Part shown: positions 384-19,848 of the stretch, one piece after another | How the letters are laid out: each line of letters opens with the position of its first letter | Numbering within the stretch: position 1 is the stretch's first letter | Source: a virus | Virus record (IMG/VR): IMGVR_UViG_3300044729_000503 | Location: 1 to 20,720 of that record | Length of the DNA: 20,720 nucleotides | Reading direction: 5' to 3' (one strand) | Position numbers and translations under genes: made by a program | Notes under the pieces: model-generated | Databases searched by the model: none | What the model saw: the letters and a program-made list of their open reading frames with translations, nothing else | Told to the model about the DNA's origin: nothing

Positions 384-1310
384 TTACACATTCCCGCTAG
401 GCAGACCCTCCAGACGTTCCCGACTTTCCGCATTGTTGGTCCCAAGAGGTGTACCTGCCAGGGGATTACCTATCAGCATACGAAGGCGGTTGATACCGCG
501 CCTTTGTATTTCGCACATGCGTGCACGCGATAGGCCCATGCGCTTTTCTAGGTCATTCCATGGCACTGGATTGCGACTGTTGCGTGCGTAGATGATTTCA
601 CGAGTGCGATCATCTAAATGCTTATCGCAATAATCGCGCACTGTTTCAAGTTGCCAATCGTATTCAACGTCGTATTGTCTTTTATCGGCAATGATGTCAA
701 GAATGTTAGATGATTCATCTTGCGCAGGCTTATCAAGGCTTGTGACTCGATACGACTGCTGCAATGTGTCAGATATCACCTTAGGAGTCACATCAAGCAC
801 TGCGGCAAGCTCCGCCATGGTTGCTGTGCGTCCGTGCTCTTGCGCAAATGCCTGTGCTGTCTTGTTCAGCTTGATCAGCATTTCATGCACGCCAAGCGGC
901 AGCCTGATGATTGGATCGTATTGAATCAATGCGCGGCCAATGGATTGGCGAATCCACCAGTAGGCGTAGGTGGAGAATTTGTATCCACGGCTGTAGTCAA
1001 ACAGCTCAACAGCGCGCGCAAGACCGATGTTGCCCTCCTGGATCAAGTCCAGCATGTCAAGCGTTTGCGTGTTGCGTCTGCTGTACTTGCGTGCAACATG
1101 CACTACAAGCTGCAGGTTGGATTGCATGAACTTTTGCTGTGCGCGCTCACCGCTGCGTAGTTCACGGCGTTCTTGTGTCGTTAAAGGTCTTTCAAGATCC
1201 TTTAATTCTCTCCACTTTGAAACTCGGCGGCCAAGTTGTATCTCTTGTTGCGGTGTTAAAAGTGGATACCGCGCGATACTGTTCAAGTAGTCGCCAATAG
1301 CGTCAGACAT
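384..1310 (-). CDS. Sigma-70 family RNA polymerase sigma factor (cyanobacterial group 2-like)
   Basis: Directs RNA polymerase to promoters. In the 308-aa reading, residues 4-30 match region 1.2 (AIGDYLNSIARYPLLTPQQE), 57-140 are region 2 with the core-binding LDMLDLIQEGNIGLARAVE and the FSTYAYWWIRQ melting segment, 151-199 are region 3, and 211-271 are region 4 ending in the HTH SRARMCEIQRRGINRLR. I chose the ATG at 1310 because the region 1.2 homology starts immediately after it; an in-frame extension to 1361 adds 17 residues unlike sigma factors. The -12-reading residues of region 2.4 are changed: Y131 and I134 stand where E. coli sigma70 has Q437 and T440. Region 4.2 is also divergent. It is the last gene of the minus-strand arm. 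It probably redirects host polymerase to phage promoters (inference). Confidence 0.93.
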   Translation of the reverse strand: MSDAIGDYLNSIARYPLLTPQQEIQLGRRVSKWRELKDLERPLTTQERRELRSGERAQQKFMQSNLQLVVHVARKYSRRNTQTLDMLDLIQEGNIGLARAVELFDYSRGYKFSTYAYWWIRQSIGRALIQYDPIIRLPLGVHEMLIKLNKTAQAFAQEHGRTATMAELAAVLDVTPKVISDTLQQSYRVTSLDKPAQDESSNILDIIADKRQYDVEYDWQLETVRDYCDKHLDDRTREIIYARNSRNPVPWNDLEKRMGLSRARMCEIQRRGINRLRMLIGNPLAGTPLGTNNAESRERLEGLPSGNV

Positions 1311-1332
1311 GGAAAATCCGTTAGTACATACA

Positions 1333-1569
1333 ATGGAAGCACAATTCCACGGTGCTGCCAATGCCGCGCAGCTACGTGCGTTACATGCTGCAGCAGATTG
1401 GGGCGGACTGTTGGAATATGCGCTGCTGCTAGCCGAGCAAGAAGCAAGCCAGCGGTCTCAAATCCACTGGCTTGTGCAGGAGGCATCGGCAGCGTTGCGG
1501 ACTGGACTAGAGCAGTGGCACCTAGATGCCGCTGAGGAACTGCTTCGAGGCCGTCGTCGTGAGATCTGA
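1333..1569 (+). CDS. Small protein of unknown function between sigma factor and dCTP deaminase genes
   Basis: A 78-residue product beginning MEAQFHGAANAAQLRALHAA, predicted mostly helical, with no signal peptide or membrane segment. I do not recognise a family. It lies on the plus strand against its neighbours. The start is 23 bp from the divergent sigma start, and its last 48 bp overlap the convergent end of the dCTP deaminase gene. An in-frame ATG at 1309 would add eight residues and overlap the sigma start codon; the ATG at 1333 looks better because MEAQF begins the amphipathic helical part. No clear Shine-Dalgarno site precedes either start. The composition looks like real protein rather than an antisense shadow, but the call is moderate. 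Confidence 0.5.
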   Translation: MEAQFHGAANAAQLRALHAAADWGGLLEYALLLAEQEASQRSQIHWLVQEASAALRTGLEQWHLDAAEELLRGRRREI

Positions 1570-2052
1570 GTTGTAATGGCCAGTCACGCTGTAGCTGGTC
1601 ACCGGCTGCTGGCTCATGTGGAAAAAAACCATCTGACCAATCTTTAATCCAGGCCACAGCGGCAGCGGCAAGATCTGGCGTGAGTTCTTTAGTTCCAATG
1701 TCAGCACGCTGCCGTGCCAGCCCGGATCGGCGTAACCGGCGTGCAGATTTTCGTAGCCTTCCCTTGCGCGGCTTGACTTGAGGAAGAACAGACCAGCAAT
1801 GTTCTCCGGCATGTGGAACACCTCAATCGTCTGCGCAAGGATAAACTGCCCTGGCTTTAGCTCGTACGGATTTTCCGCCGTGCGTCCCGCAATGCTGAGC
1901 GGCCGCATGTTCAGGTTTTCAGCAGACTCGATCATGATCGTGTCACCAAGCCGTAAGTCAAGGCTGGCAGGATTGATCAATGCCTCGTCGTAGTTTGGCA
2001 CCATGCCGTCGGTGCACAGCGCTTTGATTTCGTAGTCGCAAAGGATGGTCAT
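1522..2052 (-). CDS. dcd: dCTP deaminase (Dcd/dUTPase superfamily)
   Basis: Deaminates dCTP to dUTP, feeding dTMP synthesis during phage replication; acts in the cytoplasm as a trimer in known members. The 176-aa protein shows NPASLDLRLG (27-36), the substrate motif SSRAR (93-97), HAGYADPGWHG (104-114) and the strand TLELKN with E120, which aligns with the catalytic glutamate of E. coli Dcd (E138 in LEF). It is slightly shorter than E. coli Dcd (193 aa). A bifunctional dCTP deaminase/dUTPase cannot be excluded from sequence alone. It is the final gene of the tightly packed small-gene series, 24 bp after the 107-aa gene, and overlaps the plus-strand gene 1333-1569 at its end. Confidence 0.92.
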   Translation of the reverse strand: MTILCDYEIKALCTDGMVPNYDEALINPASLDLRLGDTIMIESAENLNMRPLSIAGRTAENPYELKPGQFILAQTIEVFHMPENIAGLFFLKSSRAREGYENLHAGYADPGWHGSVLTLELKNSRQILPLPLWPGLKIGQMVFFHMSQQPVTSYSVTGHYNSDLTTTASKQFLSGI

Positions 2053-2076
2053 TGGTTGAGTAAATAGTGGGCTTGG

Positions 2077-2400
2077 CTAATCGGGGAGCTGCTCCAGTGC
2101 GCGGCGAAGTGGTTCGATGATGCCGGGATCTGTGGTCCGCTGCTGCAGCGCTTGTAGTGCTTCCAGCGCCTGCTCCTTCAAGCTCGATGACTTGGGGCGG
2201 CGGGCGGCGCGGAGTGCTAGCGCAGCGTCATAGCCATCGTTGTCCCTAGTCAATTCACAGCACGCCTCCAGCTCTTGGTCGGCACCGTATTGAGCGGCTT
2301 CAATTAATAGTTCATTGATTCCTTTGTTGTAATCATCATGCTGCTCAAACCAAAGCTGCAATAGCTCTGACGGTGGGGTGATCGGATGTTGTTGTGTCAT
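2077..2400 (-). CDS. Uncharacterised 107-aa phage/cyanobacterial protein
   Basis: A soluble helical protein with an N-terminal ITPPSELLQLWFEQ stretch, a central GADQELEACCEL segment (two adjacent cysteines), and a C-terminal part LRAARRPKSSSLKEQALEAL followed by RRALEQLPD. I recognise this pattern from hypothetical proteins encoded by Synechococcus genomes and their phages, but no function is known to me. Its ATG overlaps the stop of the upstream 61-aa HTH gene by 4 bp (ATGA), so translation is probably coupled. No catalytic motif, signal peptide or membrane segment is visible. It sits directly before dcd. Confidence 0.8.
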   Translation of the reverse strand: MTQQHPITPPSELLQLWFEQHDDYNKGINELLIEAAQYGADQELEACCELTRDNDGYDAALALRAARRPKSSSLKEQALEALQALQQRTTDPGIIEPLRRALEQLPD

Positions 2401-2582
2401 TCAAGCCAGCTCCATGCAATGCGTTGGCAGATGCGCCATGCGTGTTCTTTGCTGATGCCGTAGCGTTCTGCCAGTTGTCTGTAGCTGCTGCCAGCAACAC
2501 GCAACTGGCGTAGTTCGCGTACGTGATCTTCTGTGAGAAACGCGGCGTAGTTTTCCTCGCCGCGCTTAAATGGATCACTCAT
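2397..2582 (-). CDS. Small helix-turn-helix protein (61 aa)
   Basis: Likely a small DNA-binding protein. Residues 18-55 form an HTH pattern: EDHVRELRQL, then SYRQLAERYGISKEHAWRIC, which resembles the resolvase/HNH-associated HTH in which a Q-L-A/G-I-S turn precedes the recognition helix. Almost nothing lies outside the HTH, so it would act as a stand-alone regulator or a partner to another protein. It overlaps the DUF3310 gene by 8 bp upstream and the 107-aa gene by 4 bp downstream, so it belongs to the same transcript. Targets are unknown. Confidence 0.8.
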   Translation of the reverse strand: MSDPFKRGEENYAAFLTEDHVRELRQLRVAGSSYRQLAERYGISKEHAWRICQRIAWSWLE

Positions 2583-2793
2583 CTACATGCAACAGCAACC
2601 TGCGCATGTACCAGTCGGCTTTGCCGTAATCCTGATCGGCATTGCCTTTGTGCTCAGCACGCCATAGGTATTTGATGACGTTACCTTTGCAGTAAGCGCG
2701 GAAGCCATCATCACCGAGTGATGCCTTGATGGCTTGGATGCACTCAATGTCGCCGTGCTTGTAATGCGGCGGATGATTGACGAGATCACTCAT
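2575..2793 (-). CDS. DUF3310 family protein
   Basis: A 72-aa protein that matches DUF3310 (SaV-like) throughout: VNHPPHYKHGDIECIQAI at the N-terminus, then GNVIKYLWRAEHKGNADQDYGKA and WYMRRLLL. The family is widespread in phage early regions, often near nucleotide-metabolism and replication genes; its biochemical role is not settled. Here it lies between small HTH and hypothetical genes and overlaps both neighbours by 8 bp, consistent with one polycistronic early message. The conserved HPPHY and IKYLWR blocks are intact, so the protein is likely functional. Confidence 0.93.
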   Translation of the reverse strand: MSDLVNHPPHYKHGDIECIQAIKASLGDDGFRAYCKGNVIKYLWRAEHKGNADQDYGKADWYMRRLLLHVDE

Positions 2794-2941
2794 CGCCTAA
2801 AGCCTCTGCCATATCGCGGCGGATCAGATCAGCAATGCGTTGTTGATACAGACCGGTGTAGGTGCAGCAGGTCCGGCCGCTTTGCTGGTACAGCCACTGC
2901 AGGTAGTCATCACGGCGCTGCTCAGTTTTGTGGTTGATCAT
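2786..2941 (-). CDS. Small protein, 51 aa, unknown function
   Basis: A short gene reading MINHKTEQRRDDYLQWLYQQ, then SGRTCCTYTGLYQQ and ending in MAEALGDE. It has two adjacent cysteines in a TCCTYTGLY motif, a charged N-terminal helix and a C-terminal helix; no family is recognised. The case for reality is position: its stop overlaps the DUF3310 start by 8 bp and its ATG lies 20 bp inside the end of the preceding 51-aa gene, so it fills an otherwise empty slot in a gap-free series. It may be a small binding protein; no function can be assigned. Confidence 0.7.
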   Translation of the reverse strand: MINHKTEQRRDDYLQWLYQQSGRTCCTYTGLYQQRIADLIRRDMAEALGDE

Positions 2942-3077
2942 CTTGCATTAGCTCCAGGAGTTCAAGAATATGCGCGGCAAATGCCACGTGTGTCATCACT
3001 GCATGGGTGCCGGGAGGGCGCCCGTAGGACGCCTCCCACCACTCCTTGAATGCAATGTCAAGTGTGGTTTGATTCAT
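2922..3077 (-). CDS. Small protein, 51 aa, unknown function
   Basis: Reads MNQTTLDIAFKEWWEASYGR followed by PPGTHAVMTHVAFAAHILEL and a short acidic tail. It looks like a compact two-helix protein rich in aromatic residues (EWWEASYG) and resembles the EWW-type short proteins seen in many phage early regions, but I cannot name a family. The ATG overlaps the stop codon of the SSB gene (ATGA), which argues for translational coupling and fixes the start. Its end overlaps the next 51-aa gene by 20 bp. Confidence 0.72.
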   Translation of the reverse strand: MNQTTLDIAFKEWWEASYGRPPGTHAVMTHVAFAAHILELLELMQDDQPQN

Positions 3078-3427
3078 CAGAACACAGGCTCCTCGCTGGT
3101 GGTTGCTGCGCCGCGTGGCATGAATTCAAAGCGCTGGATGCTGAGCACATGCTTACTGCGCTTGGCACCAGTTTCCTTGTCGTTCCACTCTTGCCGGCGC
3201 ACGGCGCCAGTTACGAGAATGCTGTCGCCCTTTTTGAGCTTATCAACGATCAGCTCAGCGGACTTGCCCCAGATCTCGCAGTCGATTGCGTTATTGATCC
3301 AGTTGCCGTCTTTGTCTTTACCCTCTTGGATGCCACCAGCGAAGTTAGCAACCATGGTGCCAGATTCAAAGGCACGCAGTTGCGGGTCGGTAATGATGCG
3401 AACGATGCCAGTTGCGTAAAGGCTCAT
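3077..3427 (-). CDS. ssb: Single-stranded DNA-binding protein
   Basis: Coats single-stranded DNA during replication and recombination. The 116 residues hold an OB-fold of the bacterial SSB type: MSLYATGIVRIITDPQLRAF, then ANFAGGIQ, an IDCEIWGKSAELIVDKLKKG core and GDSILVTGAVRRQEW. The C-terminus ends EEPVF, an acidic-hydrophobic tip like the DDIPF tail through which bacterial SSB recruits partner proteins. The linker is much shorter than in host SSB. It sits between Bet/exonuclease and small early genes, matching a recombination set. The start ATG at 3427 lies just after the stop of the HTH gene. Confidence 0.93.
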   Translation of the reverse strand: MSLYATGIVRIITDPQLRAFESGTMVANFAGGIQEGKDKDGNWINNAIDCEIWGKSAELIVDKLKKGDSILVTGAVRRQEWNDKETGAKRSKHVLSIQRFEFMPRGAATTSEEPVF

Positions 3428-3428
3428 G

Positions 3429-3638
3429 TCAGTTCAGTGGTGTGATGCCATTGGCTTCTTCAAAAGCCAAGACTTGTGCAAGGGGATAGCGAACACGTGG
3501 CGTGCCTGCTGGTAGGCCAATGCGTGGTGCAGTGACGTAAGCCGGACCAATACCACGTGCGCGTTGGTTTTTTACGGCTGCTGGCTTCAATCCCCAACGT
3601 GCTGCCAGTTCGTCAGTGGTGAGGAATGGCTCAGTCAT
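3429..3638 (-). CDS. Excisionase/MerR-like HTH protein
   Basis: A 69-aa DNA-binding protein of the HTH_17/AlpA type. It begins EPFLTTDELAARWGLKPAAV, the usual 'tabletop' helix-turn-helix, followed by a wing containing GIGPAYV and PRVRYPLAQVLAFEE, where the RYPLAQVLAF strand-helix is typical of these proteins. I use the ATG at 3638; a TTG two codons upstream is less likely. It overlaps the Bet gene end by 8 bp and stops 1 bp before the SSB start. It could be a transcriptional regulator or a recombination directionality factor, but no integrase is in view, so regulator is the safer reading. Confidence 0.83.
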   Translation of the reverse strand: MTEPFLTTDELAARWGLKPAAVKNQRARGIGPAYVTAPRIGLPAGTPRVRYPLAQVLAFEEANGITPLN

Positions 3639-4386
3639 CAGCAAACGGATCCTCCGATGGCGTGTCGGATAGGACCGCCTCGCGCTCTACAGCAAGGCGC
3701 AGCAACTCGTCGTTCTGCTCATCGCTGAGATCAGGCTTGCGCTTATCCATGCGCGCTACGACCTCCTGCAGCTTGGCCAGTGTGTCGGCCTTGGCAATCG
3801 CAGCCTTGCCGGCTTGGAACAGCTTGGCGTCGCCTGCTGGTAGCGCAGGTGCAGCGGTAACGGTCACCGGCTCTACCTCGGCCTGCTGCATCTCATCGGT
3901 GCTGTAGACACCGGACATGTCGGCAGGGAACGCCTTACGCAGTGCCAATGCCTCAGAGCATTTGGCGATCATTGCGGCGCCCATCTTGGACCACAAGCCT
4001 TGGCCGGCGTTGTAGTCAGCAAAGCGTGCAACGCCAACAAATGGATGCTGGCTGCCCTTGCGATGGATGATGGTCTTGGCCGCGGCAGGTGGCTTGCTGC
4101 CAAGCCATACGTCAGTCCATACGCCGTCGTCACCGCACCAGTAGGTTTCGCTGCCGTCAAGCTGCCCGGTGCGCTCGGCAATGGCACGCAAGCCGTCAAT
4201 GCCGGCCTGGATGGTCATCTTGCCGCCACGCTTGATGGCGTAGATCTGCTTGCTGAACGGATCTAGCCCAGTGCGCTGGCAGGCGTAAGCAAACAGGCGC
4301 AACTCGTCATTGCTGCAGCCAGGCGCAATGGTGGTTGAGATCAGCTGCGTTTGCTCTGGTGTCCAGAGCGTGATGCTAGAAGTCAT
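3631..4386 (-). CDS. bet: Bet/RecT-family single-strand annealing protein
   Basis: Anneals complementary single strands exposed by the partner exonuclease. The 251-aa protein follows the lambda Bet pattern: APGCSNDELRLFAYACQRTG, LDPFSKQIYAIKRGGKMTIQ, AGIDGLRAIAERTGQLDG, then WSKMGAAMIAKCSEALALRK and AFPADMSGVYSTDEM. Length is close to lambda Bet (261 aa). The C-terminal third is low-complexity and acidic, ending in DPFADD, perhaps a partner-binding tail. It overlaps the exonuclease gene by 11 bp and is followed by an HTH gene and SSB, the usual exo-annealase-SSB order. Confidence 0.95.
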   Translation of the reverse strand: MTSSITLWTPEQTQLISTTIAPGCSNDELRLFAYACQRTGLDPFSKQIYAIKRGGKMTIQAGIDGLRAIAERTGQLDGSETYWCGDDGVWTDVWLGSKPPAAAKTIIHRKGSQHPFVGVARFADYNAGQGLWSKMGAAMIAKCSEALALRKAFPADMSGVYSTDEMQQAEVEPVTVTAAPALPAGDAKLFQAGKAAIAKADTLAKLQEVVARMDKRKPDLSDEQNDELLRLAVEREAVLSDTPSEDPFADD

Positions 4387-5167
4387 CGGATGTGATAGTT
4401 GGGTTGGCAGTTAATGCCCATGAAGGCAGGCTGAGCGTTTGGCAGTGATCGCCGTAACCCGCCCACTCCTTGGTGGCTTGGCAATCGGCAATCACGCGCA
4501 TGTCACGTTGCCGCAGCTCATCACCAGCAGCCATGGCCGCGGCGTCAAGCTCGTAGACCGCAACCGCGTACGGTGCAGTCTTCTCAACGGCAATGAACAC
4601 AAACCGCTCAGCACCGTGCAAGCCGGCTAGGTAGTGGCTCGCTTGCACATGGTAGCGGAAGGTAGCCACGCTACGGGCGAAGCCGGCAAGGCTGGCGTCT
4701 GTGGTGGTCTTGAGGTCAACCACCGTCGCGCCGGCGTACCAGTCGGGGCGGCATTTGCACCGCAGCCCAGTGGCAGCGTCATCCCACCAGAAAGACTGCT
4801 CAGCCTTGCCATGGGCGAGCAATGCTGCTGCTGCAGGGTGCACGCGGACGCTGGCAGCCATGCTGAGCGCTAGCGCCATATCGGACTGAGTGACGGCTTC
4901 AATGCCATCAGCAGCCATGCGCTCTGCTTGCTCTTTGCCAGCCTTGGTGTTGCGCGGACCGCAGACGCCATAGCGCTGCAGCAACTCCTCCGGCTCCAGC
5001 ACTGCGCAATGCACCAGTGATCCAAGCCGCATGGCAGCAGTCGGCTCCGGTGCAATGCGCTTGGGGTCGAGGTAGCGGCTCCAGTAGTGGTAAGGCGACT
5101 TGGCCACTGCGTGCAGGTGCGAAGCGCTGACGGCTGGGTCGGCGTGGTAGTCGGCATTGCTGGTCAT
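4376..5167 (-). CDS. PD-(D/E)xK exonuclease, RecE/DUF3799-like, partner of Bet
   Basis: Probably a 5'-3' double-strand DNA exonuclease that makes the tails used by the Bet protein. In 263 residues I see YHADPAVSASHLHAVAKSPY near the N-terminus, LGSLVHCAVLEP (48-59), E123, CRPDWY with D142, VVDLKTT with D151 and K153 (the D-x-K core), and the QASHY motif (Q175, Y179). That is the RecB-like nuclease set found in RecE and phage PDDEXK_1 proteins. Catalytic residues appear complete. It overlaps the 66-aa gene upstream by 4 bp and Bet downstream by 11 bp. Confidence 0.9.
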   Translation of the reverse strand: MTSNADYHADPAVSASHLHAVAKSPYHYWSRYLDPKRIAPEPTAAMRLGSLVHCAVLEPEELLQRYGVCGPRNTKAGKEQAERMAADGIEAVTQSDMALALSMAASVRVHPAAAALLAHGKAEQSFWWDDAATGLRCKCRPDWYAGATVVDLKTTTDASLAGFARSVATFRYHVQASHYLAGLHGAERFVFIAVEKTAPYAVAVYELDAAAMAAGDELRQRDMRVIADCQATKEWAGYGDHCQTLSLPSWALTANPTITSDDF

Positions 5168-5364
5168 ACCGCTGCTCCACTACGCAGTTGGCGGTGCATA
5201 CGGCTGGCGGTGCCGTAAGTGGAGACCAGCTCGGGGAATGCGTCCAGTAGGCGGCGCTTGTTGCCGGGGTCAGCCTTGAGGCCAGCAGCGGCTAGGGCTT
5301 GGAAGAATCCACCGCCGTGCTGGTAGGCGGTGGCAAATGTCCAGTAGATGTCTGTTTCAGTCAT
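5164..5364 (-). CDS. Small protein, 66 aa, unknown function
   Basis: Reads MTETDIYWTFATAYQHGGGF, then ALAAAGLKADPGNKRRLLDAF and PELVSTYG. The phrase ALAAAGLKADPGNKRRLLDAFPEL resembles short phage proteins seen in several hosts, where a helical segment is followed by N-R-R-L-L-x-A-F-P; no function is known to me. It is soluble and near neutral. The ATG overlaps the stop of the 41-aa membrane protein (ATGA) and its stop overlaps the exonuclease start, so it is part of one coupled message. A role connected with the exonuclease is possible only by context. Confidence 0.75.
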   Translation of the reverse strand: MTETDIYWTFATAYQHGGGFFQALAAAGLKADPGNKRRLLDAFPELVSTYGTASRMHRQLRSGAAV

Positions 5365-5486
5365 GGCTTGAGTTGCTCTTGGCAGGCGTGATGGCTGTAG
5401 GCGGGCTGCTGGCGGCCGGTGTCATAGGCCATTGCCCAGACACCGAAGATGATTGCCAGCACGGCGAGGCGGTTGAGATTGTTCAT
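5361..5486 (-). CDS. Small single-pass membrane protein, 41 aa
   Basis: Reads MNNLNRLAVLAIIFGVWAMA followed by a short polar tail with one cysteine near the C-terminus. Residues 6-20 form one hydrophobic helix, so a membrane anchor or uncleaved signal is likely, with the tail outside or in the periplasm depending on orientation. No family is recognised. Both ends overlap neighbours by 4 bp (ATGA), which supports it as a real gene despite its size. It directly follows the membrane-anchored HTH protein, so the two may act together at the membrane (inference). Confidence 0.68.
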   Translation of the reverse strand: MNNLNRLAVLAIIFGVWAMAYDTGRQQPAYSHHACQEQLKP

Positions 5487-5677
5487 GCCATCAGCGCCTT
5501 ACGGACGCGATAGGTGGACAGGTTGAGGCGATCGGCAATGCGCTTCTGGCTCAGGCCAGTGCGGCGCAGTACGCGGATGCGGCGATCATCTGAGGCGGTT
5601 AGCCAGTCGATCACGGCGACTACTACCAGCAGTGGCAGCAGCAGTTTCCAGATGATCAGCAGTGCGGTTGTGAGCAT
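5483..5677 (-). CDS. Membrane-anchored helix-turn-helix protein, 64 aa
   Basis: An unusual two-part protein. Residues 4-25 are one strongly hydrophobic helix (LLIIWKLLLPLLVVVAVI), and residues 35-62 form an HTH: VLRRTGLSQKRIADRLNLST then YRVRKAL. The HTH looks like the LuxR/resolvase kind, with the turn at GLSQKRIADRLNLS. It would place a DNA-binding head on the inner face of a membrane. It is the first gene behind the promoter at 5717-5744, with a 33-nt leader and a weak GAGAA ribosome site. Similar TM-HTH short proteins occur in cyanobacterial phages as far as I recall, without assigned function. Confidence 0.82.
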   Translation of the reverse strand: MLTTALLIIWKLLLPLLVVVAVIDWLTASDDRRIRVLRRTGLSQKRIADRLNLSTYRVRKALMA

Positions 5678-5694
5678 GGTTCTCGGTTTGGGGT

Positions 5695-5708
5695 GCCGGT
5701 TGTCCGGC
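5695..5708 (-). promoter_or_regulatory. Short inverted repeat at the start of the early leader (possible operator)
   Basis: GCCGG-TTGT-CCGGC, a 5-bp perfect inverted repeat with a 4-nt loop. It lies at about +2 to +16 of the transcript predicted from the promoter at 5717-5744, and upstream of the ATG at 5677. It could be an operator for a repressor or a leader hairpin. The short arms make chance possible. Confidence 0.35.
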
Positions 5709-5716
5709 TTGTGCGT

Positions 5717-5744
5717 ATCCTACACCATGTGCAACCCCTGTCAA
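5717..5744 (-). promoter_or_regulatory. Sigma-70-type promoter for the minus-strand recombination gene series
   Basis: On the minus strand a perfect -35 TTGACA (5744-5739) is followed, after a 16-bp spacer, by TAGGAT (5722-5717), matching TATAAT at four of six positions including the key A and final T. Transcription would start near 5710 and give a 33-nt leader before the ATG at 5677. The -35 box overlaps the stop codon of the VRR-NUC gene, so this promoter would split the minus-strand arm into an upstream helicase part and a downstream recombination/SSB part. Confidence 0.6.
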
Positions 5745-6088
5745 CTCCCGGCAGCCATGATCTGCTCCGCATCGCTGACCGACCGCGCCACGCCGGCAAT
5801 GCCACCAGCGGCCTGGACCGCATCCAGCCACTGCTGCTGCTCGGGCCGCAGCCTGCCTGTTGCGGTCTTCACCTCAATAGATAGGAAGACAGCCACGGTG
5901 CTGCCGACCATCTCGGGCGTAATGGTGACGCGCTTCCAGCCGATCAGATCAGCGCTGCCCTTGCACAGGCCGAACTGCACCGGGCGGCCATTGGCGTCCT
6001 TGAGCGTGCCGGTGTTGTTGCGGAACAGGCGCGTATCACCGTTGCTGCAGGCAATGCGGATCTCTTGCTGGATTTGCTGCTCGGTCAC
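5741..6088 (-). CDS. VRR-NUC domain nuclease
   Basis: A 115-aa stand-alone VRR-NUC protein, a PD-(D/E)xK nuclease of the type found in phages and in FAN1, expected to cut branched or recombining DNA. The core is complete: E9 in the first helix, GSADLIGW with D47, the strand FLSIEVK with E72 and K74, and the RPEQQQWLDAVQAAGG helix with the conserved glutamine. It begins with GTG at 6088, immediately after the RadD-like helicase stop codon at 6089-6091. Together with the helicase it looks like a helicase-nuclease pair for processing replication or recombination intermediates (inference). Confidence 0.93.
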   Translation of the reverse strand: MTEQQIQQEIRIACSNGDTRLFRNNTGTLKDANGRPVQFGLCKGSADLIGWKRVTITPEMVGSTVAVFLSIEVKTATGRLRPEQQQWLDAVQAAGGIAGVARSVSDAEQIMAAGS

Positions 6089-7435
6089 TCATCCGCCGTA
6101 ACGCTTCGCCAGTCTGGCTTGATAGACCCTTTCCGCCCAGCCGCGCTTGTAGCCGCGTTGCTGCGCTAGCTGGCGTAGGTCGTCGAGGGACTGGGCGCTG
6201 CCTTGCTCACGCTTGCGCTGGCGTACTGCCATCTCCACCAACTCCCCATCCACCTGCTGCAGCTCGCGGCGCTCCTGCGGCGCAAACACATGGCCACACT
6301 CGCGGCATACCTGCACTGCACTGGCGCTGGTGGCAAAGCATTGCGGGCAGACCTTGACCGATGGCGCTTGCTCGCGGTCGCGCTTTTTAAGGCCATCTAG
6401 GGTCCAGTCTCGTCGCTCTAAGTGATGTCCCATCCTGAGAGTGTTGCCGACGTGATCCAGCACCACGGCGCGCTTACCGAGTTGCGGGCGCAAGCACCGG
6501 CCGATCATCTGCAGGTGCAGCGCCACTGATGCTGTTGGCCGCAGCAGGATGCAGCCGCCGACTGATGGCACGTCCACGCCTTCACCGATCAATGCGCAAC
6601 TGGTGAGCACCTTGAGTTTGCCGGTGCCCAGATCGCTGAGCAACTGCCGGCGTTGTGCAGTATCCATGCTGCCGTCGATACTGGCCGCGGCGATGCCGTT
6701 GCGATGGAACAGATCCGCCACTGCCTCCGCGTGCGCCACTGAGCAGCAGAACGCGATTGCCGTTTGACCTGGCAGGTGCTTGCGGTAGTGGCCAAGGCAA
6801 TCGCCCATGATCGTGCCGACGCGCTGCTCAGCCTCCTTGGGGTCGAAGTCACCCATGCGCTTGCGCAGGCCAGTTGAGTCGAAGCCAGGCGGTGCCAGCA
6901 CCTTGGCAGCAGCAAGGAATCCGGCATCTGTGAGCTGCTGCGCTGTTGGGCCTTGCACCATGGATTGATAGTGCTCGCCTAGGCCGCGGCCATCGCTGCG
7001 GATCGGTGTTGCGGTCACGCCCAGCAGCTTGGCGGCATGGAAATGCTCGATGACCTTGGCCCATGTGCCAGCCGTGGTGTGGTGTGCCTCGTCCACCACT
7101 AGGAGCTGGAAGAAATCACGCGGTAGCAGGTGCAGCCGGCGGGCAACGGTTTGCACGCTGGCAATTTGCACGGCATGGCTGAGATCCATGCTGCGGCCAG
7201 CGCTGATACGGCCATGCGGCATGGGCATAGCGCGGCTGGCTTGATCCAGCAGCTCTTGCCGGTGCACAAGTACCAGCACGCGGTTGCCCTTGCGGCTGGC
7301 CTGCTCTGCGATGTAGCTAAAGCACACTGTCTTGCCGCCGCCGGTCGGCAGCACTGCTAGGACTGATTTATGCCCTAGCTGGTATTGCAGGCGGATGTCG
7401 TTGATTAGTTGCTGTTGGTAGGGACGGAGGTTCAT
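6089..7435 (-). CDS. SF2 DEAD/DEAH helicase, RadD/YejH-like
   Basis: An ATP-dependent DNA helicase or translocase. In the 448-aa reading: LRPYQQQLINDI (Q-motif region), Walker A PTGGGKT (30-36), DEAH (115-118), TATP (141-144), motif V GEGVDVP (284-290), and motif VI QMIGRCLRP (309-317). A zinc ribbon follows (CPQC 363-366, CREC 377-380), then a basic C-terminus. This layout matches RadD-like proteins, which help with double-strand break repair in bacteria. I use the ATG at 7435, forming a TGATG overlap with the upstream helicase-methyltransferase gene, rather than the GTG one codon earlier. The adjacent VRR-NUC nuclease suggests a functional pair. Confidence 0.93.
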   Translation of the reverse strand: MNLRPYQQQLINDIRLQYQLGHKSVLAVLPTGGGKTVCFSYIAEQASRKGNRVLVLVHRQELLDQASRAMPMPHGRISAGRSMDLSHAVQIASVQTVARRLHLLPRDFFQLLVVDEAHHTTAGTWAKVIEHFHAAKLLGVTATPIRSDGRGLGEHYQSMVQGPTAQQLTDAGFLAAAKVLAPPGFDSTGLRKRMGDFDPKEAEQRVGTIMGDCLGHYRKHLPGQTAIAFCCSVAHAEAVADLFHRNGIAAASIDGSMDTAQRRQLLSDLGTGKLKVLTSCALIGEGVDVPSVGGCILLRPTASVALHLQMIGRCLRPQLGKRAVVLDHVGNTLRMGHHLERRDWTLDGLKKRDREQAPSVKVCPQCFATSASAVQVCRECGHVFAPQERRELQQVDGELVEMAVRQRKREQGSAQSLDDLRQLAQQRGYKRGWAERVYQARLAKRYGG

Positions 7436-9693
7436 CACACCAGCACTCCTTGCTTGTTGTTGGCCACCTCAGCCAGGTTCTTGACTGCGCAGTTGAAATA
7501 CGAAGGCTTTAGCTCAAAGCCAACAAACTGGCGCCCAGCTTGGATGCTGCAGTAGCCCTCGCTGCCGATGCCGGCAAACGGCGACAGCACCACGTCGCCA
7601 GGGTTGCTCCATAGCTGCAGGCCGCGGCGGATCACCTCCAGCTGCAGCGGGCAGATGTGACGCTCATCCTCATTGGCGCGTGCGCTGCGGTATTGCAGCG
7701 TGTCCGATGGGTTGATGTCCATCCACACCGGGCTGGCGTAGCGCTGCCAGATGTTGATCGAGTCCTTGATCGGGTCGCCGCTTTTGGCTGGTGGGTTCTC
7801 GCCAGCAAACTCAGTGAACGGACCAGCCACTGGCTCAGGGTTGTCGCCCAGCTTGCGCACGGTCACCAGGTAGTCAGGGATGCCCTGGCGGCTGAGTGCT
7901 GAATCCTTACGCACTTGCTTATGCAGCAGGCCGATTGCCTTGGTGCGCTGCATTGCGGTGACAGGATCCTTCCAGATGCACACCTCGCTATGGAACACGA
8001 ATCCAGCAGACTGGAAGATGCGCAGCATGTCACCGCGGAAGTCTTTCACGCCGATGAAGCCATCGCGTTCTTTGCTGCTGGGCAGATTCATGCAGTGGAA
8101 GCTGATCAACCGGCCGGGCATCATTACGCGGTGCAGCTCGCTAGCAAGGAATGCGAAATGATCGAAGAACTCCTGCTCAGTGCGGCTGTTGCCCATGTCG
8201 CGGTCGCTGTTGCTGTAGGTGTAAAGCGACGCGAACGGTGGGCTGAAGATGCTGTAGTGGATTGAGTTGCTGTCGAGCTGCTTAATGCTCTCCACGCAGT
8301 CGCCCATATACATGTCCCATCCATCGCCGGACTTGTGCTCAGTGATGTGCGGCGCCACTTGGCGCTGGATCTTTTTGAGTTGTTCCATGGTTTGTTGCTT
8401 CATGATTTCAACCATTGATTGGGCCATTTGGATGCTGTCCGCTTCTTTGCGGCGGATGTTGTCGATCACGCGGCCTTCCGCCACGTCGTAGATGATGTGA
8501 GCGTTGACGGGCTGCTCTTGGCCAAATCGCCAGCAGCGGCGGATGGCTTGATAGAACGCCTCATAGCTGTGTGACAGGCCAACAAATGCAACGTTGTGGC
8601 ATCGCTGGAAGTTGAGGCCAAAGCCAAAGATGCTGGGCTTGCTAACTAACACGCGGATCTTGCCGTCTTGGAAGTCGATAGCAGCTTGCCGCTTGTGATC
8701 GTCAGAGTCTGAGCCCGACACCTCAACCGCGCCATTGATAGCCGCAGTCAGCGCCTTGCTCTCGTCGTTGAGATCACACCACACCAGCCATTGATCGGTG
8801 TTGCTGTTGGCCAGCTTGGCAGCGGCTGCCACGCGGAGGCTGAGCGATGCTTTGCGCACCTTGCGTTGATCATTGAGCGTGCGGGCTTCCATGGCAAATA
8901 GCGCCATCTGCCCGTCATCACCTGCTGTTGCCTCCCGTGGCGTCTCGACAGTGCAGTCTTGGATCTGTAGTGCCGGCAGCACGAAGTTGCCATCCTCGTA
9001 GCCAAGGTCTGATGGCTTGCGGATGGTCACCGCCCAACTGCAGACCCACTCCCAGAACTTGCTCCGCGCATGACCCTTAAGCCGCCACTTGGCAGTGTCG
9101 CCGCCGTCATGCACAAAGAACATGGCCAGCATCTCAGTGCGGGTCATCACGCCGATGAACTCGGCATGGTTGCCCAGCTCCATGTGGTCATTGGGTGCTG
9201 GTGTAGCTGAGCAGGCCAGACGGTATGGAGTGAGGCTGAACGACTCGATGATCTGATTGCGGATCTTGCCCGTATATGCCTTGAGGATGCTGCTCTCATC
9301 GAGCACCACGCCTTGGAAGCTGCCGGGGTCGAAGTGGCTCAGCTTCTCGTAGTTGGTGATCGTGATGCCGGGCTCCACCTCGGACTGCGTGGCAGCAAAC
9401 GAGCATGGGATGCCGAACTTGCCGCCTTCGCGCACGGTTTGATGCGCCACGGCAAGCGGTGTCAGCACCAGCACGTTGGCGCCAGTGTGCTGATGCACCT
9501 GATGTGCCCACTCAAGCTGCATGGCGGTTTTGCCCATGCCGCAGTCGGCCCAGATGCAGAACTTGCCGACGCGGCAAGCCATGGTCACGATGTCCCGCTG
9601 AAACGGAAACAGCGGCGCGGTGAACTGTTGCGGGTCAAAGCCAGCAACAGGTGCTGCAGTGGATTTGGAAGCTAAGAAGTCTTGGTAGGTCAT
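7435..9693 (-). CDS. SNF2-like helicase fused to a beta-class DNA methyltransferase
   Basis: A 752-aa two-domain protein. The N-terminal SF2 helicase carries Walker A ADCGMGKT (49-56), LDESS in place of DEAH (121-125), CSATPAPND (151-159) and motif VI QAIRRCWRFGQ (372-382). Residues 447-752 form a DNA methyltransferase: GDCVESIKQL (454-463), catalytic SPPF (474-477), a long target-recognition stretch, then SAM-binding SPFAGIGSEGY (694-704) and FVGFELKPSYF. Catalytic motif before SAM motif means the beta class; SPPF suggests N4-cytosine more than N6-adenine, though this is not certain. No nuclease domain is present. The start at 9693 avoids a 98-residue extension that would run through the palindrome and into the primase gene. 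Confidence 0.92.
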   Translation of the reverse strand: MTYQDFLASKSTAAPVAGFDPQQFTAPLFPFQRDIVTMACRVGKFCIWADCGMGKTAMQLEWAHQVHQHTGANVLVLTPLAVAHQTVREGGKFGIPCSFAATQSEVEPGITITNYEKLSHFDPGSFQGVVLDESSILKAYTGKIRNQIIESFSLTPYRLACSATPAPNDHMELGNHAEFIGVMTRTEMLAMFFVHDGGDTAKWRLKGHARSKFWEWVCSWAVTIRKPSDLGYEDGNFVLPALQIQDCTVETPREATAGDDGQMALFAMEARTLNDQRKVRKASLSLRVAAAAKLANSNTDQWLVWCDLNDESKALTAAINGAVEVSGSDSDDHKRQAAIDFQDGKIRVLVSKPSIFGFGLNFQRCHNVAFVGLSHSYEAFYQAIRRCWRFGQEQPVNAHIIYDVAEGRVIDNIRRKEADSIQMAQSMVEIMKQQTMEQLKKIQRQVAPHITEHKSGDGWDMYMGDCVESIKQLDSNSIHYSIFSPPFASLYTYSNSDRDMGNSRTEQEFFDHFAFLASELHRVMMPGRLISFHCMNLPSSKERDGFIGVKDFRGDMLRIFQSAGFVFHSEVCIWKDPVTAMQRTKAIGLLHKQVRKDSALSRQGIPDYLVTVRKLGDNPEPVAGPFTEFAGENPPAKSGDPIKDSINIWQRYASPVWMDINPSDTLQYRSARANEDERHICPLQLEVIRRGLQLWSNPGDVVLSPFAGIGSEGYCSIQAGRQFVGFELKPSYFNCAVKNLAEVANNKQGVLV

Positions 9694-9708: not shown

Positions 9709-9744
9709 CTTGCAACCGTAGCAGTTGTTGCTACGCTTTGCAAG
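9709..9744. promoter_or_regulatory. Nested palindrome in the divergent intergenic region
   Basis: Outer arms CTTGCAA (9709-9715) and TTGCAAG (9738-9744) flank inner arms CGTAGCA (9717-9723) and TGCTACG (9729-9735) around a 5-nt loop GTTGT. All arms pair perfectly, with only a small internal loop between them (14 paired bases). It lies between the divergent start codons at 9693 (-) and 9761 (+), and so can serve as an operator, a cruciform, or part of a replication origin. TTGCAA on each strand also sits 16-17 bp from weak -10-like hexamers, so a two-way promoter under the palindrome is possible. Confidence 0.6.
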
Positions 9745-12214: not shown

Positions 12215-12484
12215 ATGCCCGAAATCAAGATCAATGTCACCGCCGACGACCTGGCGCGGCTGAACGCTGAAGCAGCAGCACATGGGATGCCGCGTGCGCA
12301 TCTGATCCGGCAGCGTGCTTTGAGCGGTGGGGTTGTTGCAGGATTGACCACGGCGGCTTACCATGCTCTGGTGGCGGACGCCTGCGCCTTCATGCGTGGT
12401 GATCTGAACCGCCGTCACGTTGAAACTCTCGTTGCATATGTCATCGCTCATTCACATTCCAGCCAAGCAGCAGCCGGTGATTAA
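12215..12484 (+). CDS. Ribbon-helix-helix-like protein, 89 aa
   Basis: The N-terminus IKINVTADDLARLNAEAAAH followed by GMPRAHLIRQRAL has the strand-helix-helix pattern of CopG/MobC-type RHH proteins. The C-terminal half is helical (TAAYHALVADACAFMRGDL) and may mediate oligomer formation. It is the first gene behind the TAGGAC repeat cluster, so it could bind those repeats as a regulator or replication accessory (inference). Its end overlaps the next gene by 47 bp. The ATG at 12215 is preceded by no clear ribosome site. Confidence 0.78.
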   Translation: MPEIKINVTADDLARLNAEAAAHGMPRAHLIRQRALSGGVVAGLTTAAYHALVADACAFMRGDLNRRHVETLVAYVIAHSHSSQAAAGD

Positions 12485-12647
12485 TCGGCTGCATGAGACC
12501 ATGACCCAGGCAGTGGCGTACGCCGCAGCCATTGCCGACAACGCCATTGATGACGGCGTACCGCTACCCATGGACCTTGTGGATAGCTTTGCCGCTGATT
12601 ACCAACGCATCATCACCAGCCTCGTCACTGCCGCCACCGCCAAATGA
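12438..12647 (+). CDS. Small helical protein, 69 aa, unknown function
   Basis: From the ATG at 12438 it reads MSSLIHIPAKQQPVINRLHE, then MTQAVAYAAAIADNAIDDGV and a helix DLVDSFAADYQRIITSLVTA. It is soluble and helical; no family is recognised. The frame can start six codons earlier (12420) or at a later ATG (MTQAV), so the N-terminus is uncertain. Its last codons overlap the sliding clamp ATG (ATGA at 12644-12647), which argues for a coupled, real gene. Function unknown; context suggests a replication accessory. Confidence 0.62.
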   Translation: MSSLIHIPAKQQPVINRLHETMTQAVAYAAAIADNAIDDGVPLPMDLVDSFAADYQRIITSLVTAATAK

Positions 12648-13684
12648 AAGCCGTTACCTGCCAAGCCGATCTCGATCACGCGCTGCGCACCATCGCGCCA
12701 GCCGTTGGCCATCGCAGCAGCCATCCGATCCTTGATTGCTGCTTGATCCAAGCCGCTGGTGGTGTCATGACCATCACCGGCTTCAACCTTGACCTTGGCA
12801 TCACCGTCACCATCCCAGCGGCAGTGGAGACCGATGGCGCCGTAGCGCTGCCGTATCGGCTGCTGGCTGGCCTTGTGAGCCGCTTTGACGGCGATGAGGC
12901 TCTGACCCTCGCAGATGGCGCTCTAACGGCTTCTGCGGGCTCCTACGGGCTTGCAGCGGCCAATGCGGCGGATTACCCCGCGCTGCCGGTTGTAGACGCT
13001 GCTACGAGCGAGCTGCACCTGTCCGCTGGCATCCGTGCCTGCATGGCAGCTGCCAGCACTGGCGCCAGCAAGCAGATGCTCCAAGGCATCCACCTCGGCA
13101 GTGGTCACATGGAGGCCACTGACGGGCATCGCCTGATGCGTTACGCCATTGATCTGCCAGATGGCCTAGACCTCGTGCTGCCAGCCAGCACCATGCGCCT
13201 GCTGCAGGATCGCGTGGTTACCATCGCCGTTGCCAAAGGGCAAGCCGTGATCGACGCAGGCGATGGCATCACCATCTACAGCCGCATCATGGATGGCACC
13301 TACCCAGACGTGGCCAGACTGGTACCCGCTGAGTTCAAAAGCACCATCACCGCTGATCGTCGCCGCTTGACCCGTGCCTTGGAGCGTGTTGCCATCATTG
13401 CCAATGCGCACAACTCCATCGTCAAGATCGAGGCTGTAGGTGGCACCATTGCCATCACCGCTGAATCAGACGCCAACAACGGCAAGGAGCTGCTCAAGGT
13501 GGAAGGCACCGCCAATGGCGCATGGGCGTTCAACGTCCACTACCTGCTAGACGGCATCAAGGCGTTCAAGCCTGCAGAAGCCATCACCCTGCACGTCAAT
13601 ACGGCAACCACACCCGTGGTATTGACACCTAGTGGCGTGGATGGTGTAACTTATCTTGTAATGCCTGTGCAAATTAAGGGCTAA
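12644..13684 (+). CDS. dnaN: Phage-encoded DNA polymerase III beta subunit (sliding clamp)
   Basis: Forms a ring around DNA that tethers the replicative polymerase. The 346-aa protein has three repeated clamp folds: MKAVTCQADLDHALRTIAPA..., the middle part with GIHLGSGHMEATDGHRLMRY, and the third with MDGTYPDVARLVP and KELLKVEG. It ends YLVMPVQIKG, resembling the YLIMPMRL end of E. coli beta. ATDGHRL is the hallmark of the second domain. It is shorter than host clamps (about 366-390 aa). It sits between replication and packaging genes, with ATGA coupling to the preceding gene. No polymerase gene is visible, so it may serve or hijack the host polymerase (inference). Confidence 0.93.
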   Translation: MKAVTCQADLDHALRTIAPAVGHRSSHPILDCCLIQAAGGVMTITGFNLDLGITVTIPAAVETDGAVALPYRLLAGLVSRFDGDEALTLADGALTASAGSYGLAAANAADYPALPVVDAATSELHLSAGIRACMAAASTGASKQMLQGIHLGSGHMEATDGHRLMRYAIDLPDGLDLVLPASTMRLLQDRVVTIAVAKGQAVIDAGDGITIYSRIMDGTYPDVARLVPAEFKSTITADRRRLTRALERVAIIANAHNSIVKIEAVGGTIAITAESDANNGKELLKVEGTANGAWAFNVHYLLDGIKAFKPAEAITLHVNTATTPVVLTPSGVDGVTYLVMPVQIKG

Positions 13685-13687
13685 ACG

Positions 13688-14011
13688 GTGGCTAAAAAGT
13701 GCACCAACTCCGAATCAGATCAGCGGGTAAACACCGTTTATGATCTGCTTTTGCGTGCACACAGTAGGACGCAAATTATACGATTTGCGTCGGAAACATG
13801 GGATGTAGGCGAGCGTCAGGCAGAGATTTACATGTCTCGCGCTCGCCAGCTCATGGCGTTGGATGCAGAGCTAGAGCGGCCGCAGTGGCTAGCTGCTGCT
13901 GTCGCTCGCTTGCAAGATTACGAGCGTGAAGCACGCGCCAAGGGGAACCTCAGCATTGCAATCAAAGCCCTAGAAGATCAGGCCAAGCTGCTGCGGTTTG
14001 AAATGTCATGA
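13688..14011 (+). CDS. Terminase small subunit-like protein
   Basis: Recognises phage DNA for packaging. The 107-aa protein starts with GTG at 13688, three bases after the clamp stop. It has an HTH-like segment RVNTVYDLLLRAHSRTQIIR, then FASETWDVGERQAEIYMSRA, the usual small-terminase pattern in which W-x-V/I-x-x-R-Q-A-E-I-Y-x-x-R-A is the recognition helix. A long C-terminal helix (LAAAVARLQDYEREARAKGN) could serve for oligomerisation. Its end overlaps the large subunit start (ATGA), the standard arrangement. Confidence 0.85.
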   Translation: MAKKCTNSESDQRVNTVYDLLLRAHSRTQIIRFASETWDVGERQAEIYMSRARQLMALDAELERPQWLAAAVARLQDYEREARAKGNLSIAIKALEDQAKLLRFEMS

Positions 14012-15357
14012 GCTTGCTCGCCGGCATCTGCCAACCCGGCAGCCTGCTTGGGTTTATGGATGTTGCAACGCAAGAGGACACGGGCGATCTGCTGCAACGC
14101 ATCCGCGCTGATCTGCACCCTGGCCAGCTTGCGTTTGTAGACGACAGCGACACGCAGATCATCGGCATCTCAGCTGGTTATGGCGCCGGCAAGACACGTG
14201 CGCTGTGCGCCAAGGCTGTGATGCTGGCCGCGGCTAATCAAGGCTTCATCGGTGCAGTGATGGAGCCGACCGGCCCATTGATCCGCGACATTTGGCAGAA
14301 CGACTTCGAGAACTTCCTAGAGGCATATGAGATTCCGTACACCTTCAGGGCATCACCGCTGCCTGAGTACATGCTGCACCTGCCAGGCGGTGATACCAAG
14401 ATCCTGTGCCGCAGCTTTGAGAACTGGAGCCGCATCATCGGATTGAACCTTGCTTGGGTACTCGCCGATGAGATCGACACAGTGACGCCATCTATCGCCA
14501 ACAAGGCATTCCCCAAGATCCTTGGCCGCTTGCGCTCCGGCAACGTGCGGCAGTTTGGCGCTGCATCTACACCAGAAGGATTCCGCTGGATGTGGAACAC
14601 GTTCGGCAGTGAGGATGCCAAGGGACGCGCTGACCGCAAGCTGATCAAGATGCGGTCAGCAGATAACCCGCATCTGCCGCCGGACTTTATCGAGCGCCTC
14701 GAAGCGAACTACGACCCAAACCTGCTGCGGGCCTACCTAGACGGTGAGTTCGTCAACCTCACCACCGGCACTATCTATGACCGCTTCAGCCGCGACAAGC
14801 ACGTGGTGGCCGAGCTGCTAGGCCTAGACCGCGAGCCGCTACGCATTGGCGTTGATTTCAACGTTGGCAACATGTCTGCTGTAATCGGCGTCCGCACTGG
14901 CAGCAGCCTGCTAGTGATTGATGAGATCAGCGGCGCCCATGACACCGACGCGTTGGCGCAAGAGATCCAAGCGCGTTATCCGCAGCGGCGTATCTACATC
15001 TACCCAGATGCCAGCGGCGGTAACCGCAGCACCAACGCAAGCCAGACCGATATTCAGATCCTGGAGTCCTACGGCATGTCAAACCAGTCACCACGCGCAA
15101 ATCCTCCCGTCCGTGATCGCGTGGCTGCTGTTCAGGCTTTACTGGAAAACGGCAAGGGTCAGGTCAGACTCACCATCCACCAGCGATGCAAGCGGCTGAT
15201 CGAATGCCTAGAGCTGCAGTGCTACACCGACAAGGGCGACCCTGACAAGGATGCCGGCCATGACCACATGAACGATGCGCTCGGCTACTTGGTCTGGCGT
15301 GAATTCAACCCATTGCACGCAGGTGCTGGGCGATCTACAGGCATCAGGCTATATTGA
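14008..15357 (+). CDS. terL: Terminase large subunit
   Basis: Motor and nuclease for DNA packaging, 449 aa. The N-terminal ATPase has Walker A GYGAGKTR (57-64), Walker B LAWVLADEID (148-157, D154 and E155) and the coupling motif AASTPE (185-190). The C-terminal RNase H-like nuclease has VDFNVGN with D283, IYPDASGG with D334, and the metal residue near HMNDALGYLVW (D423). All acidic residues appear in place, so the protein should be active. It couples with the small subunit and is followed 24 bp later by a cyAbrB-like gene rather than the portal, which is an unusual insertion. Confidence 0.95.
   Translation: MSLLAGICQPGSLLGFMDVATQEDTGDLLQRIRADLHPGQLAFVDDSDTQIIGISAGYGAGKTRALCAKAVMLAAANQGFIGAVMEPTGPLIRDIWQNDFENFLEAYEIPYTFRASPLPEYMLHLPGGDTKILCRSFENWSRIIGLNLAWVLADEIDTVTPSIANKAFPKILGRLRSGNVRQFGAASTPEGFRWMWNTFGSEDAKGRADRKLIKMRSADNPHLPPDFIERLEANYDPNLLRAYLDGEFVNLTTGTIYDRFSRDKHVVAELLGLDREPLRIGVDFNVGNMSAVIGVRTGSSLLVIDEISGAHDTDALAQEIQARYPQRRIYIYPDASGGNRSTNASQTDIQILESYGMSNQSPRANPPVRDRVAAVQALLENGKGQVRLTIHQRCKRLIECLELQCYTDKGDPDKDAGHDHMNDALGYLVWREFNPLHAGAGRSTGIRLY
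15350..15355 (+). promoter_or_regulatory. Possible -10 box for the cyAbrB-like gene
   Basis: TATATT inside the last codons of the large terminase gene, about 26 bp before the ATG at 15382. It fits a -10 element at five of six positions, but no -35 box lies 16-18 bp upstream. It would give the regulator its own transcript. Weak evidence. Confidence 0.25.
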
Positions 15358-15381
15358 TTCCGCCAATCATTAACTCTACCC

Positions 15382-15705
15382 ATGCTCAAGGGCGTCGAAC
15401 TACTCGCCAAGGTGAAAGAACTGGGCAATGCGCCTAAGTCCGAACTGGTGCGTGCTTGCGGCTACGTGATCAAGGATCGCGTGGCATTCACGCAGTTTTA
15501 TGAAGCACTGCTGGAAGCCAAAGGCGTTGACCTAGTAGGCAACAAGACAGCAAAGCGCGGCCGCGGCCTAACCTACAAGGCAAAGGTGCAATTCAACGGC
15601 AAGCTGCAGATTGGCGATGGCTACCTGCGCGAGATGGGTTACGAGCCCGGCGCTGAGTTTGACATCAAGATTGGCCGCAATAGCATCACGCTGACTGCCG
15701 CTTAA
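15382..15705 (+). CDS. cyAbrB-like transcriptional regulator
   Basis: A 107-aa homologue of the cyanobacterial AbrB proteins. The N-terminal half carries the cyAbrB signature ELLAKVKELGNAPKSELVRA, CGYV, and then FTQFYEALLEAKG; the C-terminal half is an AbrB-type DNA-binding fold: YKAKVQFNGKLQIGDGYLRE, GYEPGAEFDIKIGRNSITL. In cyanobacteria, cyAbrB paralogues control nitrogen, carbon and stress genes and are found across the phylum. This copy is shorter, lacking residues in the middle of the N-terminal domain. It lies between the large terminase and portal genes, with 24 and 26 bp gaps, and probably alters host gene expression late in infection or times late genes (inference). Confidence 0.9.
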   Translation: MLKGVELLAKVKELGNAPKSELVRACGYVIKDRVAFTQFYEALLEAKGVDLVGNKTAKRGRGLTYKAKVQFNGKLQIGDGYLREMGYEPGAEFDIKIGRNSITLTAA

Positions 15706-15731
15706 ACTGCATTCATGACTGCGGCGCTGTA

Positions 15732-17177: not shown

Positions 17178-17397
17178 TTATCACGTCAGCGCCCTGCCGG
17201 AAGAGGTTTTAGCCATCGTGCGCATCAGCTGGTACAAGCAAGGCAGAGCCGATGAGATTGACGAAACGATCTTGTACGAAGACGGGCAAAACGGTTATGA
17301 CGCATTTGCTGCATTGGTCACCACTGCATTGAACCGCGGCGCTAACGTCAGTATTCGCAGCGGCTATCAACCGGAAGATCTTGGCATTGAACGATGA
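17143..17397 (+). CDS. Small protein, 84 aa, unknown function, between portal and MuF
   Basis: From the ATG at 17143 it reads MEPKKPRRQELDYHVSALPE then IVRISWYKQGRADEIDETIL and YDAFAALVTTALNRGA. It appears to be a small alpha/beta protein; no family is recognised. The frame is open from 17053, but earlier starts lie deep inside the portal gene; an ATG at 17134 is the nearest alternative. Its stop overlaps the MuF ATG by 4 bp (ATGA), the main evidence that it is translated. It may be a capsid accessory factor judging by position only. Confidence 0.65.
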   Translation: MEPKKPRRQELDYHVSALPEEVLAIVRISWYKQGRADEIDETILYEDGQNGYDAFAALVTTALNRGANVSIRSGYQPEDLGIER

Positions 17398-19035: not shown

Positions 19036-19045
19036 TCAGCACGGC

Positions 19046-19051: not shown

Positions 19052-19075
19052 GCGATTATGAATTAATAAAAGCCA

Positions 19076-19813: not shown

Positions 19814-19848
19814 GCGGCTAGCCTAGTCCAGCGACGGCCAATGGCGCC

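Follow-up and report, generated by a model that had tools for sequence, protein, structure and literature searches.

We analysed a 20,720-base virus record, hereafter referred to as the window, and found that it carries the gene of a phage sigma70-type factor on the minus strand (387-1310, stop codon 384-386), in agreement with the initial annotation, which had called a sigma factor at 384-1310. The 308-residue product matched four Pfam domains, PF00140, PF04542, PF04539 and PF04545 (regions 1.2, 2, 3 and 4), all above their cut-offs and region 4 barely so (24.2 bits, cut-off 24.1), and was assigned to the PHROGs sigma factor family phrog_351. Region 1.2 starts at residue 3 and region 1.1 is lacking, an architecture of the cyanobacterial group 2 type (regions 1.2, 2, 3 and 4; no 1.1), and we refer to the protein as group-2-like. 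The predicted structure (mean pLDDT 78.6, pTM 0.54) matched SigA and RpoS chains with Z of 17.6-19.2 among the 50 matches listed; the rmsd was large, probably because flexible linkers join the domains, and residues 1-131 superposed on SigA of M. smegmatis at 2.5 Å over 128 residues. Relatives of the protein are encoded in at least 596 IMG/VR stretches, and the sigma ORF spans at least 180 codons in all 80 family loci (best 80 of 596). The gene is under purifying selection (dN/dS 0.057-0.121 in 7/7 comparisons). The ORF is a real group-2-type sigma70 factor gene, and it comes from a cyanophage.

The sigma gene closes a leftward gene run whose members upstream of it (1522..9693, minus strand) serve replication and recombination and were assigned from the gene map and from Pfam and PHROGs families as helicase-methylase, ResIII helicase, VRR-NUC nuclease, PDDEXK DUF3799, RecT and dCTP deaminase. 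This run would be expressed early. A primase/helicase gene lies on the opposite strand (9895-11961; gene map and PHROGs), and from the beta clamp and terminase onward the genes are mostly rightward (12438..20720, plus strand; families, gene map and synteny). These rightward genes are syntenic with the scaffold and coat genes of S-H1, and we propose them as the probable target of the sigma. The S-H1 terminase is 79% identical to that of the window, and a tblastn search for the sigma over the whole 39,158-base S-H1 record gave nothing above chance (best E 0.09); the sigma is thus not required in every phage of the wider group. The related genomes G001, G003 and G004 carry terminal direct repeats (117, 112 and 127 bases, respectively), consistent with their being complete and circularly permuted.

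Several other genes were noted. The phage-encoded DNA polymerase III beta clamp (12644-13684, plus strand) stands where the rightward genes begin, and the sliding clamp of T4 activates late transcription (PMC2988020). An AbrB-like regulator (PF14250; 15382-15705, plus strand) directly follows the terminase gene. In the leftward run, an HTH-like protein of 61 residues (2397-2582, minus strand) matched the late transcriptional activator family phrog_836 weakly (E 2.4e-5) and endonuclease families better. No Rfam family matched the window at its gathering score.

Head-to-head with the sigma gene is an unannotated ORF of 86 residues on the plus strand (1309..1569), and the two start codons overlap in the sequence CATG (1308-1311). 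This ORF is open, with 81-86 residues, in 42/42 sequences (the window and 41 of the 80 family loci). Over its first 70 codons, dN/dS was 0.014-0.117 and the lowest of the six frames in 7/7 pairs; the ORF is under purifying selection. Searches of Pfam, of PHROGs and of the phage collection gave no match to its product, which could be an anti-sigma factor or a co-regulator.

The residue register was set by a gap-free alignment with E. coli RpoD 403-462, and a phmmer comparison with cellular SigA, likewise gap-free over this stretch, gave the identical register. W433 and W434 of E. coli correspond to W118 and W119 of the window sigma, and Q437 is kept as Q122 (codon 945..947; minus strand here and below). 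T440 is replaced by glycine (G125; 936..938), as is H455, the reader of the extended -10 element (G140; 891..893), and E458 is kept as E143. Besides the two tryptophans, R436, R441 and R451 are unchanged; T432 is tyrosine, an ordinary residue here among cyanobacterial group 2 sigmas, and L573 is tryptophan. In the recognition helix of region 4.2 (R262-A-R-M-C266; 513..527), R584 is retained as R262, E585 has become A263 and R588 has become C266. The window sigma consequently lacks the full host-type reader set of Q437, T440, H455 and E458 with R584, E585 and R588.

The ungapped alignment confirms the retention of the WW, R-Q and I-R-x-P framework described in the initial annotation, and the divergence it saw in region 4.2 is upheld by E585A, R588C and the marginal Pfam score of region 4. 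Its equation of Q437 with Tyr131 and of T440 with Ile134 fails because the register was off by nine residues: Y131-I134 (909..920) align with Q446-T449, so that Y131 stands at Q446 and I134 at T449. The altered -12 reader that it predicted from these two residues holds, by chance, in so far as the true T440 equivalent, G125, is changed. It had counted host sigma factors with the same residues as evidence against its reading; none turned up in the sample, where T440 stands in 80/80 cyanobacterial loci (best 80 of 590) and in 27/27 readable sigma ORFs of six genomes. A difference in promoter-reading residues between the window sigma and those of the host is supported by these alignments.

In E. 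coli sigma, Q437H and T440I suppress T-to-C changes at -12 (PMC2613000). In that review, the -14 pair is an interaction partner of H455 and E458, positions -31 and -33 are touched by R584 and E585, and recognition at -33 is relaxed in R588H; Q437, T440 and R441 have been called highly conserved in sigma70 across phyla (PMC8407463). In endosymbionts with reduced genomes, position 437 is His (Hodgkinia) and position 440 is Leu or Ile (Carsonella; PMC8321222), so changed -12 readers were already known in cells; these endosymbiont sigmas differ from the window sigma in the residues themselves and in their setting, which is genome erosion and not phage expression. E. coli RpoS, like the window sigma, departs from Thr at 440, where it has Glu, but unlike the window sigma it keeps H455, E585 and R588, with Lys at 458. 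The Glu440 of RpoS means that loss of Thr alone does not imply a new -12 base, and the base read is not predicted by residue 440 alone. The changed readers would be expected to relax or alter recognition at -12, -14 and -33, and a changed promoter choice by the window sigma is plausible.

We further compared 54 phage sigmas with 52 cyanobacterial cell sigmas (non-redundant at 80% and 85%, respectively) and found 45 alignment positions at which the cell set does not vary. Position 440 was the most variable of these in phages (2.82 bits; T14, S10, Q8, N7, M6, G4, A3, C1 and I1 among the 54 sequences), L573 was second (2.76 bits) and 455 third (2.33 bits; G16, N15, H15 and others), against a median of 0.45 bits. 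Part of the entropy gap between phage and cell sigmas is due to the greater overall divergence of the phage sequences, and the rank among cell-invariant positions is the fairer measure. To our knowledge L573 has no base-reading role, and its second rank indicates that the turnover is not confined to readers. Q437, T440, H455 and E458 were jointly kept in 2/54 phage sigmas (L130 and L152) versus 52/52 cell sigmas, and the -35 set (R584, E or D at 585, and R588) in 31/54 versus 52/52. T440, R448, H455, E458 and R588 are each invariant in the 52 cell sigmas, and the window sigma retains only E458. Within its own family, Gly stands at 440 in 79/79 scored loci (from the best 80 of 596).

The locus sets of the phage family, of an additional search and of cyanobacteria (best 80 of 596, 598 and 590, respectively) were fetched partly by the peptide YAYWWIRQ and another set by YWWIRQSM. 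Both peptides include Q437 and not 440, so the unanimity of Q437 is biased and the counts at 440 are not biased in this way; the region 3 profile set and the cultured isolates are free of this bias. Position 440 was scored in 79/80 family loci, in 65/79 and 13/14 new loci of the two added sets and in 80/80 cyanobacterial loci. The region 3 profile set, from six cyanobacterial genomes, passed from 42 matches through 30 loci and 28 sigma ORFs to the 27 readable ones. In the larger added set, L115, 90% identical to a cell sigma, was excluded from the alignment, L154 is one contig with L076, and L088 is S-CBS3 itself. MaAM05 was not used because its neighbouring genes look cellular.

A quick tree of 52 phage and 18 cell rows (every third cell row; L180 and L086 excluded as long branches), made without columns 440 and 455, separated phage from cell rows by a single branch (SH-aLRT 98). 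The window sigma does not fall among the cell sigmas but clusters with sigmas of related phages, and its gene lies in a phage gene neighbourhood. On this tree the parsimony minimum was 17 changes at 440, 13 at 455, 0 at 437 and 0 at 441, counts that are approximate with 21/67 inner branches open. With L180 and L086 included, the minima were 18 at 440, 15 at 455, 0 at 437 and 1 at 441, L180 being the sole row with a residue other than Arg at 441. The fixed state of 437 and 441 holds for the tree rows only: among three cultured phages outside the tree, position 441 is Lys in S-CBS2 and S-CRES3 and Glu in P-SS2, in which 437 is Lys as well. As far as alignment and tree indicate, exchange of reader residues on a kept framework is common across the phage sigma lineage.

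Sigmas of cyanosiphoviruses were known before, in S-CBS1, S-CBS3 and KBS-S-2A (KBS2A; annotations and PMC3751600) and in S-LBS1 (PMC6157547, seen in part). None of the seven cultured cyanophages examined (S-CBS1, S-CBS3, KBS-S-2A, S-LBS1, S-CBS2, P-SS2 and S-CRES3, the last three read from a weaker alignment) keeps all four -12/-14 residues. The group 2 sigmas of the Synechococcus siphophages S-CBS1 and S-CBS3, annotated rpsD4, are homologous to the window sigma (51.6% identity over 69% and 38.8% over 99%), and their genes likewise lie near the end of a run on their own strand, before lysozyme and tail genes on the opposite strand. They carry Cys and Ser at 440, respectively, and unlike the window sigma both keep H455. 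The RpoD-like sigma of KBS-S-2A is also homologous (41.7% over 78%), and the terminase of that phage is 79% identical to that of the window; its sigma differs in keeping T440, E585 and R588, with Asn at 455. In the Prochlorococcus siphophage P-SS2, the sigma gene (ORF 113) has a dCTP deaminase gene immediately upstream, as in the window, and, unlike in the window, is directly followed by ssb. The P-SS2 sigma is very diverged (Lys 440 in addition to the residues at 437 and 441; lower-confidence alignment), and in the view of its authors this group 2 sigma most probably acts at canonical promoters (PMC2784084). Cyanobacterial group 1 and 2 sigmas have the domain order of the window sigma, and the group 2 members share Y432-WW-IRQ with it. 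A search of the open-access literature found no paper on region 2.4 of cyanophage sigmas and no title on their reader residues; phage group 2 sigmas as such were known, and the family-wide turnover of reader residues was in none of the papers searched.

We then considered promoters. Two candidates of the host type, both by consensus match only, lie on the minus strand before the leftward run (TTGCAA-N17-TACGGT, 9715..9743) and inside it (TTGACA-N16-TAGGAT, 5717..5744), and are consistent with an order in which a host sigma first drives expression of the phage sigma. Pairs of TTG and TANNNT before leftward genes numbered 2, 2 and 3 versus 0.4, 0.3 and 0.4 expected, and before rightward genes 4, 2 and 2 versus 0.8, 0.4 and 0.7 (G001, G003 and G004), some of the rightward pairs falling within the divergent region or within sequence that is probably coding. 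The word CTANNNT, with T at the -12 place, occurred before rightward genes 10, 4 and 7 times versus 2.1, 1.1 and 2.1 expected in these related, non-independent genomes, and 4, 3 and 3 times antisense in the same upstream regions. Sixteen words were compared, GCTANAAT words being tallied beside CTANNNT, and the gaps, which depend on gene calls made for this analysis, include truly coding ones (e.g., before 17391/17394).

Leader comparison and promoter-pair, word and EM motif searches yielded no sigma-specific promoter motif, and the motif searches did not find the promoter of the sigma gene itself. The phage-specific promoter class foreseen in the initial annotation is a prediction; T440G, H455G, E585A, R588C and the family pattern support the broader idea of a sigma that differs in its promoter-reading residues. 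In the rightward gaps of G001 and G004, the best EM motif beat all eight shuffles in 4/4 tests (25.8 versus a shuffle maximum of 24.9; 42.1 versus 39.8; 29.1 versus 25.7; 43.7 versus 39.8), compared with 1/4 tests for leftward gaps; its G+C-rich words (GCCTGCG-n-CTG) resemble leader hairpins and not a promoter. In relatives of the window and in KBS-S-2A, the coat gene is preceded by a conserved leader that contains GGCTGCGCC and GGGCTGCGCCC (in G004 at 20368-20451 of the rotated genome, outside the window). It was rejected as sigma-specific, for S-H1, with no sigma match above chance, has a similar leader with GGGCTGCGCCC. At the coat site, the 9-mer CCGTTAGTA that the sigma and coat leaders have in common overlaps a stop codon, and chance probably explains the match.

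Taking the gene with its homology and selection, the residue states and the family pattern together, we lean with moderate confidence towards a phage group-2-type sigma that directs host RNA polymerase to phage promoters. From its place at the end of the leftward run, the sigma gene would be expressed with the replication genes, and its product would take over from the host sigma on the polymerase; the promoters served would most likely be those of the rightward, late genes. Such a sigma would recognise DNA through an unchanged framework, with Q437 and the melting residues also retained, and with the other base readers probably altered in effect by T440G at -12, H455G at the extended -10 element and E585A with R588C at -35. 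The position of the gene in the genome and the host-type candidates in the leftward run also speak for this explanation. Points against it are the over-represented host-type pairs before rightward genes, the counterpart of the coat leader in S-H1, the Glu440 of RpoS, the second rank of L573 and the failure of the promoter searches to yield a sigma-specific motif or the promoter of the sigma gene.

The same pairs fit a sigma that reads ordinary host-type promoters and merely raises or sustains phage transcription, as the P-SS2 authors assumed, the changes at 440, 455 and in region 4.2 being tolerated drift. Host-type candidates exceed expectation before both leftward and rightward genes, CTANNNT is over-represented before the rightward genes of the related genomes, Q437, WW, R436, R441 and R451 are unchanged and RpoS manages with Glu at 440; nevertheless, the changes at 440 and 455 concentrate at sites that are invariant in cells and far above the median variability, and we regard this alternative as rather unlikely. 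A host-reprogramming role, in which the phage would have captured a cyanobacterial group 2 sigma to switch on stress or energy genes of its host for its own benefit, is improbable: the group-2-like architecture of the protein and the Y432 found in most sampled cyanobacterial group 2 sigmas would suit such reprogramming, but phage sigmas occupy their own side of the tree and the reader residues are unlike those of all host sigmas sampled. A decaying relic, to which the weak region 4 score and a stop within the matched stretch of one family locus (L078) might point, is scarcely credible in view of the low dN/dS in every comparison and the long ORF in all 80 loci.

Beyond a sigma that directs host polymerase to phage promoters, we tentatively suggest a private cyanophage sigma lineage in which the readers of -12 (440) and -14 (455) have been repeatedly exchanged against a fixed background of Q437, R441 and the melting framework, so that each phage group may have its own promoter code. 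It is equally tentative, as part of the same reading, that these codes are separate from those of the host and of competing phages. If true, the phage sigmas would form a natural collection of base-reader variants that share an otherwise constant scaffold; they would reveal which sigma residues govern preference at -12 and -14, and how, and would offer orthogonal sigma-promoter pairs for cyanobacteria, and the P-SS2 assumption of canonical promoters for a cyanophage group 2 sigma would come into doubt.

We also observed an inverted repeat, AAGCC-TGC-GGCTT (20137-20149, plus strand), just 5' of the start codon of the gene at 20154. A single fold of a 50-base piece with this repeat gave a best structure different from the inverted repeat. 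At the matching place, G001 and S-H1 have ACCC-TGC-GGGT, the arms appearing as if changed together.
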